Translations under genes and position numbers: made by a program
Origin: Acidobacterium capsulatum ATCC 51196
GTDB lineage: Bacteria; Acidobacteriota; Terriglobia; Terriglobales; Acidobacteriaceae
DNA length: 64,000 nucleotides
Assembly (NCBI RefSeq): GCF_000022565.1
Contig: NC_012483.1
Span: forward strand, 1,302,001 to 1,366,000
Reading direction: 5' to 3'
The notes under the pieces: model-generated
The model's input: only the letters and a program-made list of their open reading frames with translations
Told to the model about the DNA's origin: nothing
Databases searched by the model: none
Shown here: positions 1,192-7,173 of the stretch, in pieces
How positions within the stretch are numbered: the stretch's first letter is position 1
How the letters are laid out: the number at the start of each line of letters is the position of its first letter

Positions 1192-3963
1192 TTACTGCAT
1201 CTTCAAACGGCGCTCTCTGCGCTGAGATCTTAAGTGATAACGATTCGCCCGCGGACGATAGCGCCGATGAAGCTGATTGCCCGGTATGGCCGGACTGGTT
1301 TCCGCCGGGGCGGGAGCAGACGGGGGAGCCAGCTTCGGGAAGGTATGCGGAATCAGGAAGCTGAGGCCGCTTTCAATATCCGGCCCAGATTCAAGAAGAA
1401 CTCGCTGTTTGAATAACTTGCCATCATATCGAACAATGACGGACTGATTTCCGGCGGGGAGACTCCGGAACAGAAATCGTCCCTGAGAGTCCGTATGCAC
1501 GGTCCGGTGAAGACCGGGAATGCTCACTTCTGCCCCCGCCAGCGGCGCCTTCTTGCCTGTGCTGCCATCAAAAAACTCCACCTGCCCAGAAGCGCTCCGC
1601 TCTGCCGGAAGCCGGAAAACGACGTGCCCCGGATTGCGAGCAGTCACGTGTACCTTTTGATCCTGCAGGCTGCTCAGCGGATAGCCCGGGGGGAAGGTCG
1701 ACGCCTCCGGATGAATAGTGTAGACACCGTCCGGAAGTCCATCCACCGTGAATGTGCCATCGCCTGCCGTATCGATTTGTCTGGAGATATGCGCACCCGT
1801 GATTCGCAACGTGACCTCCAGGCCTTGTCCGGCATCATTGATCACCTTGCCAAAGATGCGCCCCTGAGCAATATCCACGCCGAAATCCGCGGTTCCTCCC
1901 GTCATGACTGACCGGGGATTGCTGCTGGTATAGAAAAATACCTGCTTGTTGCGGTAATCCACCTCAACGCGGTGCATACCATAGGGCACCCCGCGAAACA
2001 TATAATGACCGGCCGCATTGGTATGAGTCGAACGATGCCCGTCCAGATAGACCAGCACTCCCTCCAACGGCTGATCTCCCGTCGAGAAGCTCTGCTCATA
2101 CGCTGCATCTTCAAAGACGTATCCCTGAATCACTCCATGACGCACGGGGAGAATCCATCGCGGAATGGCATAAAGCTGATGCTGCAGTGAGAACTGAATG
2201 ACAGGCTGAGTCGAAGCCTGTCCACCCGCAACGGTGTGAAACATCGAGAAGCCAGCATTCAGCACGTTGTTCGGCCCCATCTTTCGAGTCCACGTGACGC
2301 CGCCATCCAGCAGGCGCATCGCCGCGATATTGCCGCCACTACTCGTGTTGATCAGCGCATTGAACGAGAAACGGCCCGCTTTCCGGCTCGTCCAGTTCAA
2401 CATTCCGCCATATTGTTTGCGGTTGGTCGCCAGACCAAAAGTGACCGGCTGGGTATAACCCTGCGAGGTAAGTGACGAGTTTTCCCGCATAAATTGCGCC
2501 AACTGCGCGGGACTCATCGCCGTGACGCTCTCATGCTGCAGCATTTGTTGCAGAGAACTGTTCCCGCTCTGCACCGGAGCCAGCACAGGCGTCTCTGTCT
2601 GAACATCGAAATACACAGAACCGCTCACAGCCGCCATGCCTGCCTGCAAGGTCGTCGAATAGTTATGGCTATCGGGCGTGGTGCCACCGTTCTTCAGCAA
2701 CTCGTATTGAAAAGATCCGCCGACATGCTTCCACTGCAGTTGCGGACCAAAGAGAAATCCTTTGCTGATGATGGTCGGCGAGTAGGGCAGCGTCTCAATG
2801 AATCGCGACGCCGTAATACCACCCGTCACACCAAAGTGCCGCTGCAGATTCACAACTTCCTGCAGGCTGGCGGTATCGACTTGCTGACGCTCGAGCGCCA
2901 GATTGATTTTGGTGTCGCTGCCTGAAGCCTGCATTTGAGCCTTCTTCCCGAACTTGCCTGTCCAGTTGAAGCTGGCCGTGCGCCCATGCAGCAGCGTCAT
3001 GCCCAAAGACGCGATTTGCGGAGACAAGTAGTGAATATTCAGGTTGTAGCGCTGCGTTGCAGTTCCACCTTCAATCTTTCCTGAAAATGCCCCGCCGTTC
3101 CCCATCCCAACTTCTGCCGAGGCCTGCAGGGTATGCCCCAGTGTAAGGTCATACTGCACCGTACCAATGCCGCCGGTCTGTGCGCCATAATTGACCGTAG
3201 TATTCGTGTCGAAGTAATAAAAGTTCCATTTCAGACTTGAGTGCTTGCTCAGGCGGAAACTGCGGGAGAGCCCTGCGACCTCATACCGATTGCCCGGCAA
3301 AAGAAAATCCTGAAATTGCGTCATCGAGGTGATGCCGGCATGAAACTCCCATGCACCGGTGGTGTAGTGAATGCCCCTCAAGAGGACGCCATTCAAAGTG
3401 AGGTCACTGTTATCGACCATCTCGTCGACCAACGTCAGGGTCCTCTTTGGATAGGAGACCTGATACGACAACAAGGGAAAGCCAATCGGAGTCTGTCCGT
3501 TCGCCTGAAACAGATCGGCATTGGTGATCTGGATGTGGATCGTCCGCACGCCCTCAATCTCGGTGAGGTTTTCTACATTCGTGATCTCGTCAGGATTGTT
3601 GTTATAGAGAAACTGATATTGCCCATACTGCACCGTCTGTCCCGGCACCGAAGGCAGGCCCGATGTCTGGCGCCGGCGCGAAACCGGGGCCGGCACGGTT
3701 ACCAGCAGCGTATGCACACCGGTGATGGTGACCACCACCACATTCGCCTGGCCCGGGGCGCGCCCCACAATTTCATACCCGCCCGGCACCGCCTGGGCGT
3801 CTGCCACATCGGTATTCAGAGAATAGACTGCCGTCACCCCGGGCTCAGTGAACGAGCGGGTGTGCCGGTACTGCACCAGTATTGCGTCCCTTGCCTGCAC
3901 CTGGGCCCACATGGGCGGCGCAAGCAGGCAGCCCAGCAGCACAAGCAACAGAAACCGGATCAC
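1192..3963 (-). CDS. Usher-like outer-membrane protein with pilus-type N-terminal domain and carboxypeptidase-regulatory repeats
   Basis: This protein of 923 residues begins with a hydrophobic signal (FLLLVLLGCLLAPPMWAQ). Residues ~25-95 resemble the N-terminal domain of pilus/secretin proteins (PF13629-like; strands ending GYEIVGRAPGQANVVVV). The middle ~450 residues alternate polar and hydrophobic residues, as expected of a beta-barrel. From ~600 on there are about three carboxypeptidase-regulatory/Cna-B-like modules (GVIQGYVFED, GRIFGKVINDAGQG, ASGQVEFFDG) with the G-x-F-x-F-x-x-L/V-P-x-G pattern. No FimD/PapC signature is obvious. By position after a chaperone-like gene and subunit genes it is the best usher candidate. 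The GTG start at 3963 overlaps the chaperone stop as GTGA, which suggests coupling. An ATG at 4020 would overlap that gene by 61 bases and add a poor N-terminus. Its role as a secretion pore is inferred. Confidence 0.7.
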   Translation of the reverse strand: MIRFLLLVLLGCLLAPPMWAQVQARDAILVQYRHTRSFTEPGVTAVYSLNTDVADAQAVPGGYEIVGRAPGQANVVVVTITGVHTLLVTVPAPVSRRRQTSGLPSVPGQTVQYGQYQFLYNNNPDEITNVENLTEIEGVRTIHIQITNADLFQANGQTPIGFPLLSYQVSYPKRTLTLVDEMVDNSDLTLNGVLLRGIHYTTGAWEFHAGITSMTQFQDFLLPGNRYEVAGLSRSFRLSKHSSLKWNFYYFDTNTTVNYGAQTGGIGTVQYDLTLGHTLQASAEVGMGNGGAFSGKIEGGTATQRYNLNIHYLSPQIASLGMTLLHGRTASFNWTGKFGKKAQMQASGSDTKINLALERQQVDTASLQEVVNLQRHFGVTGGITASRFIETLPYSPTIISKGFLFGPQLQWKHVGGSFQYELLKNGGTTPDSHNYSTTLQAGMAAVSGSVYFDVQTETPVLAPVQSGNSSLQQMLQHESVTAMSPAQLAQFMRENSSLTSQGYTQPVTFGLATNRKQYGGMLNWTSRKAGRFSFNALINTSSGGNIAAMRLLDGGVTWTRKMGPNNVLNAGFSMFHTVAGGQASTQPVIQFSLQHQLYAIPRWILPVRHGVIQGYVFEDAAYEQSFSTGDQPLEGVLVYLDGHRSTHTNAAGHYMFRGVPYGMHRVEVDYRNKQVFFYTSSNPRSVMTGGTADFGVDIAQGRIFGKVINDAGQGLEVTLRITGAHISRQIDTAGDGTFTVDGLPDGVYTIHPEASTFPPGYPLSSLQDQKVHVTARNPGHVVFRLPAERSASGQVEFFDGSTGKKAPLAGAEVSIPGLHRTVHTDSQGRFLFRSLPAGNQSVIVRYDGKLFKQRVLLESGPDIESGLSFLIPHTFPKLAPPSAPAPAETSPAIPGNQLHRRYRPRANRYHLRSQRRERRLKMQ

Positions 3964-4772
3964 TGAATGGTGAAGCCGGATTGAACGCTCTGTGTCTTGT
4001 CCCCGAAAACGAAAGTGCATAGTGCCCGATAACTGCCCGCAGGCAGCGTGCCCGGATACTCAGCATGGAAATTGAGTTTCTCGCCCGGCAACAGGCGCTT
4101 GATGGTGAAAGGAGCCTTCCCCACCAGATGTCCGCGGCTATTCAGAATGGCCGCCGTCCCCTTGGGAAGCGCCGGTTCCGTGCCGGTGTTCGTCAGCCCG
4201 GTATCCATGCTCAGGTTAGTGGTGTCAGTCGGGGGATGGATTTGCAGAGGCCCAATGCTCACAGCTACATCATTCGTGAGATTGAAAGTGACCAGCGTCC
4301 CAATCGAAGCCGTCAAGCCCACGCCCTTTTGATCGGTAGTGATCACTCGCTTCGTATGAAAGACCGCAACCATGGCCCGCAGAGGAGTCTTCAGAGGAAG
4401 CGTCACCGTCATGAGTACAGTTGCACTCGTGTGAGGGGGAGCCACAATTTCCTTGGGCGAAAACACCGCGCTCGCGGCGATGCTGTCCGGCGATTCCCCC
4501 GCGGGTTCAAAGACACGCTTGCCGTTCTTCACCACCACATCCTCTGCGACCATATCGAAGCGAAAGGTCGCCGGAGTGTTGTTATTGATCGTCAACCGCT
4601 GCGTCAAGCTTTGCCCAAATGTCCCTTTGGCCATAATCACGGCCGGGGTAAGAGAGAGAGAAGAAGACTGTGCCGAGGCAGAAGAAACCGCAATCCATCC
4701 GCTGAAGCAGGCAACTGCAAACACCGCCGGCAATGCGGACACAAGGGTGGTTCGGAGATAACGGAAGATCAT
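3960..4772 (-). CDS. Periplasmic chaperone-like protein (pilus assembly type)
   Basis: This 270-residue protein starts with a signal peptide ending at ASAQ. The body reads as two Ig-like domains. The first has SLSLTPAVIMAKGTFGQSLTQRLTI and the APPHTSATVLMTV strand typical of chaperone-type proteins. The second carries LTNTGTEPALPKGTAAI and a terminal strand pair. PapD-like chaperones bind fibre subunits in the periplasm and donate a strand. Similar architecture also occurs in DUF916-type cell-surface binding proteins, so the chaperone role is inferred from the neighbours: four small secreted proteins upstream and the usher-like gene downstream, overlapping by four bases. The diagnostic Arg/Lys pair of classical PapD chaperones could not be placed by eye. 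Confidence 0.65.
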   Translation of the reverse strand: MIFRYLRTTLVSALPAVFAVACFSGWIAVSSASAQSSSLSLTPAVIMAKGTFGQSLTQRLTINNNTPATFRFDMVAEDVVVKNGKRVFEPAGESPDSIAASAVFSPKEIVAPPHTSATVLMTVTLPLKTPLRAMVAVFHTKRVITTDQKGVGLTASIGTLVTFNLTNDVAVSIGPLQIHPPTDTTNLSMDTGLTNTGTEPALPKGTAAILNSRGHLVGKAPFTIKRLLPGEKLNFHAEYPGTLPAGSYRALCTFVFGDKTQSVQSGFTIQ

Positions 4773-4810
4773 GGCGAAAAAGAAGCTCCGGGGTTGAGGG
4801 GATAGATTTG

Positions 4811-5368
4811 CTAGTTTTCAGTGATTTCAAAGCCAATCGTCGCTTTGAAATCGGCATTGGTTCCATTCGCACTACGTGGAATCACAATCTTCAACGCATG
4901 GCTGGTGATACCCATAGAAGCTGCGCTATCGATGGATTTTGGCTGCAGGGTTAATGGCACATTGTCGAGATAAACCTGAAAAGGCGTTACAGGCAACGAT
5001 AGCCAGGCCTTCAGCGAAGCTGTTCCCTGCGAACTGCTCGTATTTCCAATCTTGACTCCAAGCGGAGCGATGATCGAAAACTCTTCGTCTCCGCGCTCGA
5101 CCTGGATGCCTTGATTGGAAGCGCCCCCAAAATAAGATACCGAGCCAATATTCAGCACTCCGCCGCCCATCGCGCTCATGACTTTGGGCCCTCGCGAGAG
5201 CGGCACAAAGTCAAACGACAAGGTCTGCCCGGCAATCACCTGCATGGGCGCTGCATTCCGCAGATGCACCCCCACGCGCACGGCACGAACCGGATGGACA
5301 TCGGTTGCGCCGCGCGCGACGGAGAGGAGCACCAGGAATACAGCAGGCAGAATACAAAAGCGTTTCAT
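4811..5368 (-). CDS. Secreted fibre subunit-like protein (divergent, last of four)
   Basis: This 185-residue protein has a signal peptide (ILPAVFLVLLSVARGA) and an all-beta-looking mature domain. It ends in ADFKATIGFEITEN, a divergent version of the (I)xFxATAN ending shared by the three proteins upstream. It differs from them by a less Ser/Thr-rich sequence and by a segment with NIGSVSYFGG, so it may be a tip or adaptor subunit rather than a bulk subunit. It lies 38 bases before the chaperone-like gene and 27 bases after the preceding subunit on the same strand. Adhesin, minor pilin or assembly factor are all possible; the assignment is from context and secretion signal. Confidence 0.6.
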   Translation of the reverse strand: MKRFCILPAVFLVLLSVARGATDVHPVRAVRVGVHLRNAAPMQVIAGQTLSFDFVPLSRGPKVMSAMGGGVLNIGSVSYFGGASNQGIQVERGDEEFSIIAPLGVKIGNTSSSQGTASLKAWLSLPVTPFQVYLDNVPLTLQPKSIDSAASMGITSHALKIVIPRSANGTNADFKATIGFEITEN

Positions 5369-5395
5369 AGGCAGTGGCCCCGCCTTACCTCAGGC

Positions 5396-6001
5396 TTAGT
5401 TTGCGGTTGCGATGAAGGAAATCGAGTTATTCGGCTGTGCGGTCACGGTGCTTCCATTGGCAACACCTAAGAACACATACACGGTGTTCCCGCCGGTGCC
5501 ATAAGTTCCAGTGGTGGAAGACGTGTACAGAGAAGCCGGCGTGCTGTTGGATAAAGGAGCCGAGGGAGTGGTGGTGGATGTAGCAACACCCCAGTAATAG
5601 CTGTCCGTCGTACCCAATTCAGCAGTGAGCGAAAAACCATTCGCCGTTGTCACATCTGAGCCGCTCACAACAATGTTGACCGGGGCATACACCACAAAGC
5701 AGCTGGAGCAAAGACCTGCTGTGGAGCCGCTATCCAGCGTGACGCCGCTGGGCTCGCTGCCGTAGGCAGAAATATTGCCGAAGTTAAGCGTTGCTGCATT
5801 CGTACCCGGGTTTGTGAGTGCGGGTCCACTCGTGGCCGAGCTGAATGTCAGGCTGATAGACGGATTCACAGTCGCAGTCACTGTCAGAGTGCCGGTCGAT
5901 GTGGGGTTCGCACCGGCAAAGGCCGCCGGTGCGGCCATCAACAAAATTCCAGCAGATACCGCAAACAGCCGCCGAAGAAATACTCCATATTGCACTTGCA
6001 T
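5396..6001 (-). CDS. Secreted fibre subunit-like protein (DUF4402/spore-coat-U-like)
   Basis: This 201-residue protein has a signal peptide ending AAFAGA. Its mature region is rich in Ser, Thr, Gly and Ala, and begins with a strand like its paralogs (TGTLTVTATVNPSISLTF). A block with TNPGTNAATLNFGNISAYG is shared with the 6029-6589 protein, and a CSSC pair sits mid-protein. It closes with NSISFIATAN. This pattern recalls the DUF4402 and CsuA/SCPU types of subunit. Subunits of that kind are exported through an usher and polymerise by strand exchange. Co-directional spacing of 27 bases on each side supports one operon. Confidence 0.7.
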   Translation of the reverse strand: MQVQYGVFLRRLFAVSAGILLMAAPAAFAGANPTSTGTLTVTATVNPSISLTFSSATSGPALTNPGTNAATLNFGNISAYGSEPSGVTLDSGSTAGLCSSCFVVYAPVNIVVSGSDVTTANGFSLTAELGTTDSYYWGVATSTTTPSAPLSNSTPASLYTSSTTGTYGTGGNTVYVFLGVANGSTVTAQPNNSISFIATAN

Positions 6002-6028
6002 TGTAGATACCCTCTCTTGTCGGCCGGA

Positions 6029-6589
6029 TCAGTTGGCCGTAGCGGTAAAGTTGATCGTGGAAGTCAACTGCGTTCCGGTGGTGGGCCCCCCAGCTCCAGA
6101 AGCAGACGTAGAAACGACGGCGCTCAAGGTATGCGCAATATTGCCGCCGTAAGAGCTTGTGGTGGAAACGGTCTGGCTAGTGGTACTCAGAGTGACTGAA
6201 TCCACCTCAATCGTGATACCCGTTGGCGCGGTGGCGCTCAAAGCCGCAGCGAGGCTGTAGGTTGAGCTGGTTGTACCGCTTTCCTCGACATTGACATCAA
6301 ATGGCGTAGAAACCGTGAAGCTGGATGTTCCGATCGTCCGCGTGACGCCGGTCCCCAACGACCCATATTCTGAAACCGTTCCGAATGCGAGCGTCGCTGC
6401 TGACGTTCCCGGATTCCCGAGTGTGACGCCCGAGGCATCGGAATTAAAAACCATGATTAGGCCCGAACCATTCTCTAGCTCGACATTCAGAGTTCCGGTA
6501 GTGGACTGCGCAACTGCACCCACCGTCGCAACTGTCACCAGCAGCAGCAACTGAATTAGCCTGGTTCTAAAACATGAAAGATAAGTCAT
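6029..6589 (-). CDS. Secreted fibre subunit-like protein
   Basis: This 186-residue protein has a signal peptide (LIQLLLLVTVATVGAVAQ), then TTGTLNVELENGSGLIMVF and GNPGTSAATLAFGTVSEYGS. These are the same segments seen in the 201-residue neighbour, so the two are paralogs. The C-terminus is TSTINFTATAN. It lacks cysteines in the mature part. The ATG at 6589 shares one base with the stop of the upstream subunit gene (TGATG), so translation is probably coupled. The likely role is a structural subunit of a surface fibre assembled by the chaperone- and usher-like proteins encoded downstream. Confidence 0.7.
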   Translation of the reverse strand: MTYLSCFRTRLIQLLLLVTVATVGAVAQSTTGTLNVELENGSGLIMVFNSDASGVTLGNPGTSAATLAFGTVSEYGSLGTGVTRTIGTSSFTVSTPFDVNVEESGTTSSTYSLAAALSATAPTGITIEVDSVTLSTTSQTVSTTSSYGGNIAHTLSAVVSTSASGAGGPTTGTQLTSTINFTATAN

Positions 6590-7173
6590 CAGTTTGCCGT
6601 CGCCGTGAAGTCAATTGCTTGTGACAAGTTACTTGTCGTTACTGTAGAGGCAACTGTAACCGTCAAGGTGAAATACTGCGAAGCGTTGTATGGTCCATTT
6701 GCCGTTATAGAGATGGCAGAGGAACTGAGAGAAGTTGAGTTCAGCTTCCACGTCACGCCTGTAACGGGCGTCGATGGCAGTCCAGCGGTCAACGAAAAAC
6801 TTCCGCTCGAAGTATTCGCTTCCGTCACCTTGTAATAGACAAGATCCTGCAGCGTGTAAGAGCCAGTCGAGCCGCCTGTCGAGGTGAATTGAACACAACT
6901 CTCGTTGTCGCTGGCCATAGTCGCTATTCCAAGGTTCAGAGCCGCACTGCTGCTGTTCGCTCCAGATAGCGCGCAGTTGTCCTGGGTGCCCACCTGAGGA
7001 CTCTGCACAAATATAAGACTGATACTGGACTGCACCGTCATGCTGACCGTAAGGCTCCCAGTAGTGGACGTGCTCTGCGCCGCCCACGCGCTACCCTGCA
7101 GGCAAAAACAGACGGCAAAGCAACACAGGCCGAACAGCCACGACTTGACTGCCCTGTTCCGTACTACAACCAA
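6589..7173 (-). CDS. Secreted fibre subunit-like protein (first of four)
   Basis: This 194-residue protein starts at a TTG at 7173, 13 bases after the stop of the ATPase gene and preceded by a weak AAGG. The signal peptide is long (SWLFGLCCFAVCFCLQGSAWAA). The mature domain opens with TGSLTVSMTVQSSISLIF, has two separated cysteines (DNCALSG and NESCVQF) that could form a disulfide, and ends AIDFTATAN. The pattern matches its two downstream paralogs. The role as a fibre subunit is inferred from the secretion signal, the beta-rich composition, the conserved C-terminal strand and the operon. Confidence 0.65.
   Translation of the reverse strand: MVVVRNRAVKSWLFGLCCFAVCFCLQGSAWAAQSTSTTGSLTVSMTVQSSISLIFVQSPQVGTQDNCALSGANSSSAALNLGIATMASDNESCVQFTSTGGSTGSYTLQDLVYYKVTEANTSSGSFSLTAGLPSTPVTGVTWKLNSTSLSSSAISITANGPYNASQYFTLTVTVASTVTTSNLSQAIDFTATAN

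Follow-up and report, generated by a model that had tools for sequence, protein, structure and literature searches.

A chaperone-usher-like operon with a divergent usher candidate in Acidobacterium capsulatum and its relatives in Acidobacteriota and Deinococcota

Most chaperone-usher pili known to date come from Proteobacteria, and the usher domain is the mark by which they are recognised. A 64,000-nucleotide stretch of the Acidobacterium capsulatum ATCC 51196 genome (hereafter, the window) raises the question of whether such a pathway may be encoded by genes that lack this domain. Six co-directional genes on its minus strand (7173–1192) encode four small secreted subunits (SU1–SU4), a chaperone-like protein with two immunoglobulin-like (Ig) domains, and a large usher-like protein predicted to reside in the outer membrane. 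An earlier note on this DNA had described a chaperone-usher-like operon, possibly a separate branch, and this view gained support from the homology of the chaperone, the conserved gene order, the absence of a standard usher, and a fold resembling FimD and PapC. We put at about three in four the probability that the genes specify a divergent chaperone-usher-like pathway building surface fibres by donor-strand exchange.

Gene order, subunits and chaperone

All six open reading frames were confirmed, and the gaps between them were −1, 27, 27, 38, and −4 bp when a GTG start was used for the usher-like gene (1192–4020). With an ATG at 4020 as its start, the product would have 942 aa and the reading frame would run into the chaperone gene; a GTG at 3963, the likelier start, gives the 923 aa of the earlier note and agrees with the orthologues. 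Both genes were single-copy in the genome searched (4,127,356 bases, one contig), apart from two weak CnaB-only matches to the usher-like protein. The order subunits, chaperone, usher, pointed out previously, was present in the window and kept in relatives. A chaperone gene and an usher-like gene (barrel and CnaB tail) on the same strand, within ~1.5 kb of each other, were found at ~37 separate loci in the Acidobacteriota and the Deinococcota, with the order reversed only in locus L107. Some chaperones had joined the search profile through being neighbours, so the independent counts are L012, L013, L054–L056, L098–L109, and L118–L120. Given this recurrence, the arrangement is not a product of chance.

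The subunits are SU1 (6589–7173, 194 aa), SU2 (6029–6589, 186 aa), SU3 (5396–6001, 201 aa), and SU4 (4811–5368, 185 aa), the last representing a second subunit class that adjoins the chaperone gene in the loci termed type A below. As the earlier note had proposed, they are small, secreted, beta-type proteins: all four possess signal-like N-terminal segments and they are mutually related, the pilin and SU4 profiles cross-matching; SU4 is a distant relative of the pilins. Orthologues of SU1–SU3 share a post-signal segment of alternating hydrophobic residues, SGTLTVTxTVxxSIxLxF; the N-terminal beta segment of SU1 is TGSLTVSMTVQSSISLIF, and the N-terminal segment of SU3 is TGTLTVTATVNPSISLTF. The carboxyl termini are IDFTATAN (SU1), INFTATAN (SU2), and ISFIATAN (SU3). 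Asn is the last residue in 15 of 16 type A pilins, 14 of which end in AT[AGS]N; the usual endings are FTLTV[QN] for type B subunits and [FWY]TISA[ST] for those of type C. Anchoring of a pilin carboxylate by a chaperone requires a last strand without a trailing residue, and a fixed C-terminal strand with nothing after it is what such anchoring would require. The alternating N-terminal beta segment and the fixed C-terminal strand would suit an incomplete-Ig pilin; no known pilin profile was matched. Weak matches of the pilin profile in the PDB were judged to be chance. SU4 is a candidate special subunit and might serve as a tip, an anchor, or a terminator.

The chaperone-like periplasmic protein (3960–4772, 270 aa) was modelled with AlphaFold2 from seven sequences. 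The model, with a mean predicted local distance difference test (pLDDT) score of 82.8, consists of two beta-sandwich (Ig) domains (residues ~39–165 and ~171–269), and together with its fold matches shows the two-domain trait of the PapD-like superfamily. Foldseek matches to the model included CfaA, RbmA, CsuC, CupB2, FimC, and EcpB, of which EcpB had the best TM-score by target (0.60). In hhalign comparisons, the family profile matched alternative chaperones with a probability of 91.5% (E = 8.6e-7, 16 sequences) and, once widened to 32 sequences, with E = 5e-8 (values overall 8.6e-7 to 1.6e-8). The wider profile matched classical chaperones with E = 1.8e-4 versus 0.63 for the BtuB control. While the window protein on its own had no Pfam match, a linked family member (L106) passed PapD_N (E = 7e-6, 26.5 bits, cut-off 23). 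These results show that the chaperone is remotely homologous to the PapD-like superfamily, with alternative (class 5/alpha) chaperones as the nearest described pilus group, and bear out the earlier description of a chaperone-like Ig protein.

The alignment with alternative chaperones extends over ~155–210 columns, nearly the full length, and covers the donor-strand-like segment GVGLTASIGTLVTFNL, with GLTASIGTLVTFNL of the window protein aligned with ASARIGTILVV of EcpB. In domain 2, the RLLPGE region is invariant, and its LxPG motif lies inside the region aligned with EcpB-type chaperones. Arg226 of the same domain is also invariant. There was no clear equivalent of PapD Lys112; going by CsuC and CfaA, whose anchors lie in domain 2, Arg226 is a candidate for holding the carboxylate of the subunit. 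One chaperone relative (L101, 6754–8211) carries a C-terminal AMIN domain and is the sole relative to exceed the WxLIP_PGBD cut-off (27.6 vs. 27.3 bits), a hint that WxLIP shares an ancestor with the pilus chaperones.

The usher-like outer-membrane protein

The large protein begins with a secretin-type T2SS-T3SS_pil_N domain (3691–3882, residues 47–110), a confidently modelled part. This is followed by a predicted beta-barrel region (2179–3582, residues 147–614), with a conserved helical insert between late barrel strands (2431–2574, residues 483–530), and by three C-terminal CnaB/CarboxypepD_reg-like domains (1342–2139, residues 628–893). Searches of Pfam, NCBIfam, and the PDB with the six single sequences yielded little beyond CnaB-type repeats. 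At the family level, PF13629 (pil_N) matched five of 15 members (best E = 9e-5), the window copy alone not being among them, and Pfam assigned three CarboxypepD_reg/SdrD_B/SpaA stretches, the fold class of Cna-B, to the C-terminus. The pilus/secretin-type N-terminal domain and the Cna-B-like repeats of the earlier note were thereby recovered, the former through relatives. These PF13629-type and CarboxypepD-type domains sit where PapC_N and PapC_C would be in an usher.

Standard usher signatures had been reported missing, and this held. Usher PF00577 had no match in the window protein, in its genome, or among the listed matches of 14 relatives. Pfam detected no PapC_N, PapC_C, TcfC, plug, POTRA, TonB-receptor, or LptD domain in the window protein. 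CooC_C was not matched in the window genome and gave scattered weak matches elsewhere in the class. Because defining features of ushers were looked for and not found, the protein has no place in the known usher family; the chaperone belongs to a known superfamily.

Its AlphaFold model, built from six sequences, had a mean pLDDT of 63.6 and a predicted TM-score (pTM) of 0.35. In this low-confidence model, ~24–25 strands occupy residues 147–614, interrupted by the helical insert at 483–530, a possible gate, and beta domains extend to residue 890. The earlier note had proposed looking for a 24-strand barrel with a plug; a barrel of about this size was predicted at low confidence, and no plug was identified in a model that is poor over residues 112–245. 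FimD and PapC chains were the closest outer-membrane barrels by Foldseek (E = 3e-12 to 2e-8, with one PapC at 1e-5, over ~800–960 columns), followed by LptD (3e-5) and by porins and TonB receptors such as BtuB and FemA (6e-5 or weaker). TM-scores to these barrels were low (~0.2), as a poor global model would lead one to expect.

By sequence, the barrels of types A, B, and C proved homologous to one another in barrel-only profile comparisons (E = 1e-6 to 7e-10). The idea that the barrel is homologous to EcpC or FimD was rejected, since neither whole nor barrel-only profiles matched better than the LptD and BtuB controls. A long weak match between type C and alpha ushers (E = 3e-4) was discounted, as it disappeared once the C-terminal domains were cut. 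The comparison with FimD and alternative ushers proposed earlier thus gave a predicted fold resemblance to FimD and no barrel-sequence match beyond the level of the controls, and the usher assignment is one of fold resemblance and gene context.

The N-terminal domain has been swapped between lineages, being pil_N, copper-amine-oxidase-N, Ig-like, or missing. The ushers of L102 and L103 have a Cu_amine_oxidN1-like domain in place of the secretin-type one (E = 1e-7 in L103, weak in L102), and that of L102 carries a SPOR domain at its C-terminus as well. Two usher orthologues (L044, 9294–12413; L047, 310–3498) bear an extension past the CnaB domains that resembles tetratricopeptide repeats (TPR), and TPR models were matched by two members of the usher family.

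Relatives and neighbouring genes

Among 399 genomes of the class, the large protein had seven full-length orthologues with 27–33% identity. All seven are flanked by orthologues of the chaperone and the subunits, arranged as pilin(s)–SU4–chaperone–usher, which we designated type A. Locus L047 has its chaperone and pilin genes duplicated within one operon (3470–6951), possibly providing two chaperones for different subunits. Type B loci (L011, L049–L053, L057) encode the same N-terminal domain as type A (E = 7e-10 between the two), and most have genes for a ~210-aa subunit and a 380-aa protein ahead of the chaperone gene. In type C (L013, L055, L056), the usher-like protein has no N-terminal domain. 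For the collection scan, a closer subset was taken from the eight-row usher alignment, the whole set being too diverse, and this yielded five loci. Searches with the chaperone profile reached further families across the phylum, each locus having a same-strand gene nearby for a large protein that matched the usher profile. Relatives with names were Acidobacteriota.

A plasmid search added three Deinococcus loci (L118–L120). Their chaperones matched the Acidobacteriota chaperone profile with hhalign E-values of 1e-25 or better. Their usher-like proteins matched type A with E = 1.6e-16, the barrel-only comparison not being significant. They carry the annotation hypothetical or carboxypeptidase-like. 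Weak matches to the chaperone profile (E = 1e-6 to 3e-5) were seen in the Deinococcus usher-like proteins too, which have Ig-like domains near residues 140–200, as though the usher had gained an Ig domain by fusion.

A BcsQ/ParA-like ATPase gene (8011–7187, minus strand) lies 13 bp upstream of SU1. Its product scored 105 bits against TIGR03371, under the cut-off of 157.85, and has an unusual Walker A motif, TGGAGKTS. A strong terminator-like stem (8995–8970) follows the upstream esterase gene; transcription of the region therefore probably starts below 8970 and takes in the ATPase gene, which is probably co-transcribed with the pilus genes. We rejected this gene as a core part of the system: it was missing from all the relatives' loci examined, and a second, diverged copy is present elsewhere in the genome. 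By analogy with ParA-like proteins of other machines, the ATPase could position fibres at a cell pole.

Elsewhere in the window, on the plus strand, a hybrid nonribosomal peptide synthetase–polyketide synthase cluster extends over ~19175–58546. It includes a thioesterase, a pyridoxal-phosphate enzyme fused to an ornithine-cyclodeaminase-like domain, and AMP-binding and ketosynthase modules, one module starting with a luciferase-like monooxygenase. The domain scan of this cluster covered its reading frames other than those of 3034 and 3045 aa.

Proposed pathway and rival explanations

The proposed pathway would begin with export of SU1–SU4 to the periplasm via Sec. In each subunit, the Ig-like domain would be incomplete, its N-terminal beta extension free and its last strand ending exactly at the carboxyl terminus; as the homology of the two-Ig protein suggests, this protein would hold the subunit through donor-strand complementation. 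From its anatomy, the barrel protein (4020–1192) may take up chaperone–subunit complexes and thread the fibre to the surface as it grows by donor-strand exchange. The usher N-terminal domain of FimD recruits chaperone–subunit complexes; here, the pil_N and C-terminal CnaB domains would stand in for the N- and C-terminal domains of an usher.

Among described systems, the alternative (class 5, alpha) systems ECP (EcpABCDE) and CFA/I (CfaABCE) come nearest. Their chaperones are remote homologues, ecpABC has the same subunit–chaperone–usher order, and the C-terminal domain of EcpC is resembled by that of type C ushers (E = 4e-4); as a single sequence, EcpC gave E = 0.0014 against types A and B. 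Unlike alternative ushers, the large protein has no TcfC or CooC_C match, a barrel unrecognisable by sequence, a secretin-type N-domain, and three C-terminal repeats, and its subunits differ from EcpA/CS1 by profile. The classical and archaic systems FimCD, PapCD, and CsuCD share the two-Ig chaperone fold, and FimD and PapC supply the nearest barrels by fold, but the genome has no Usher PF00577 and the protein has neither PapC_N nor PapC_C. The pil_N domain is held in common with secretins of type II secretion systems and Tad pili, whereas no secretin domain is present here and relatives have either no N-domain or another one in its place. Published accounts restrict alternative systems to beta- and gamma-proteobacteria, while placing archaic systems also in Cyanobacteria and Deinococcus-Thermus (PMC4654587). 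Phyla listed with ushers are Proteobacteria, Spirochaetes, Cyanobacteria, and Deinococcus-Thermus; Acidobacteria are not among them (PMC4827864). In the literature collection searched, we found no paper on an acidobacterial usher or chaperone-usher system of this sort.

Several observations weigh against a fibre-building pathway. The subunits matched no known pilin family or profile, and their profiles gave nothing convincing against EcpA/CS1. With the barrel-only profile, alpha and classical ushers matched no better than the LptD and BtuB controls. The barrel model is weak (pTM 0.35 overall, residues 112–245 mostly below pLDDT 50), and neither a plug nor a plug-sized insert at the usual place was identified, residues 112–245 being poorly modelled. 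The lack of recognisable pilin domains and of a resolved plug would also suit the main rival explanation, which we consider unlikely: the barrel might export Ig-escorted beta proteins that stay unpolymerised as monomers or a coat, perhaps bound by the CnaB domains; repeats of the CnaB/SdrD_B kind are a typical feature of surface display proteins. Such non-fibre display leaves aside the free N-terminal beta segments, the exact conservation of subunit C-termini, the presence of several kindred subunits in one operon, and the relationship of the chaperone to those of pili, all of which speak against it.

A further point against fibre assembly is that the best E-value among fold matches of the chaperone (7.8e-12) belonged to WxLIP, which is not a pilus chaperone. 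Along with the passage of L101 over the WxLIP_PGBD cut-off, this would fit a WxL/WxLIP-like complex in which the 270-aa protein would bind the small proteins stably outside the cell, as WxLIP binds WxL proteins in Gram-positive bacteria, instead of acting as a chaperone, and the barrel would be an adhesin or porin with no relation to them. We regard this as improbable: the TM-score to WxLIP (0.41) is below that to EcpB, homology to EcpB-type chaperones in profile comparisons spans almost the entire length, and L106 passes PapD_N. The Gram-positive WxL–WxLIP clusters have no outer membrane or barrel, and WxL proteins are described as peptidoglycan-binding (PMC10599100), whereas every locus here includes a linked protein of barrel type. 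It is very improbable that the large protein is a TonB-dependent receptor, an LptD-like protein, or a two-partner-secretion pore that neighbours the other genes by coincidence. Its barrel has no sequence match to ushers, and SusC-type receptors have CarboxypepD_reg domains too; these are placed N-terminally in such receptors and C-terminally here. The Pfam results contained none of the expected plug, receptor, POTRA, or LptD domains, LptD, BtuB, and FemA were weaker fold matches than FimD and PapC, and the linkage to a chaperone recurs in two phyla. The earlier note had named a model without a barrel, or clear TonB-receptor homology, as grounds for abandoning its view; the low-confidence model does predict a barrel, and no such homology emerged. 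A divergent chaperone-usher-like pathway thus remains our preferred explanation.

Whether these loci represent a further major branch of the chaperone-usher pathway, beside the classical, alternative, and archaic ones, seems to us evenly balanced. Such a branch, in Acidobacteriota and Deinococcota, would have kept the barrel and the CnaB tail while exchanging the N-terminal recruitment domain, and its chaperones would form a bridge between alternative pilus chaperones and two-Ig proteins of the WxLIP kind. Neither of the family libraries tried, Pfam and NCBIfam, picks up the system, and the Deinococcus copies are annotated as hypothetical. It recurs in soil Acidobacteriota, in which surface fibres are poorly known. 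If fibres are assembled, the usher N-terminal domain would be replaceable by unrelated domains, and an outgroup would be gained for the origin of the chaperone-usher pathway.

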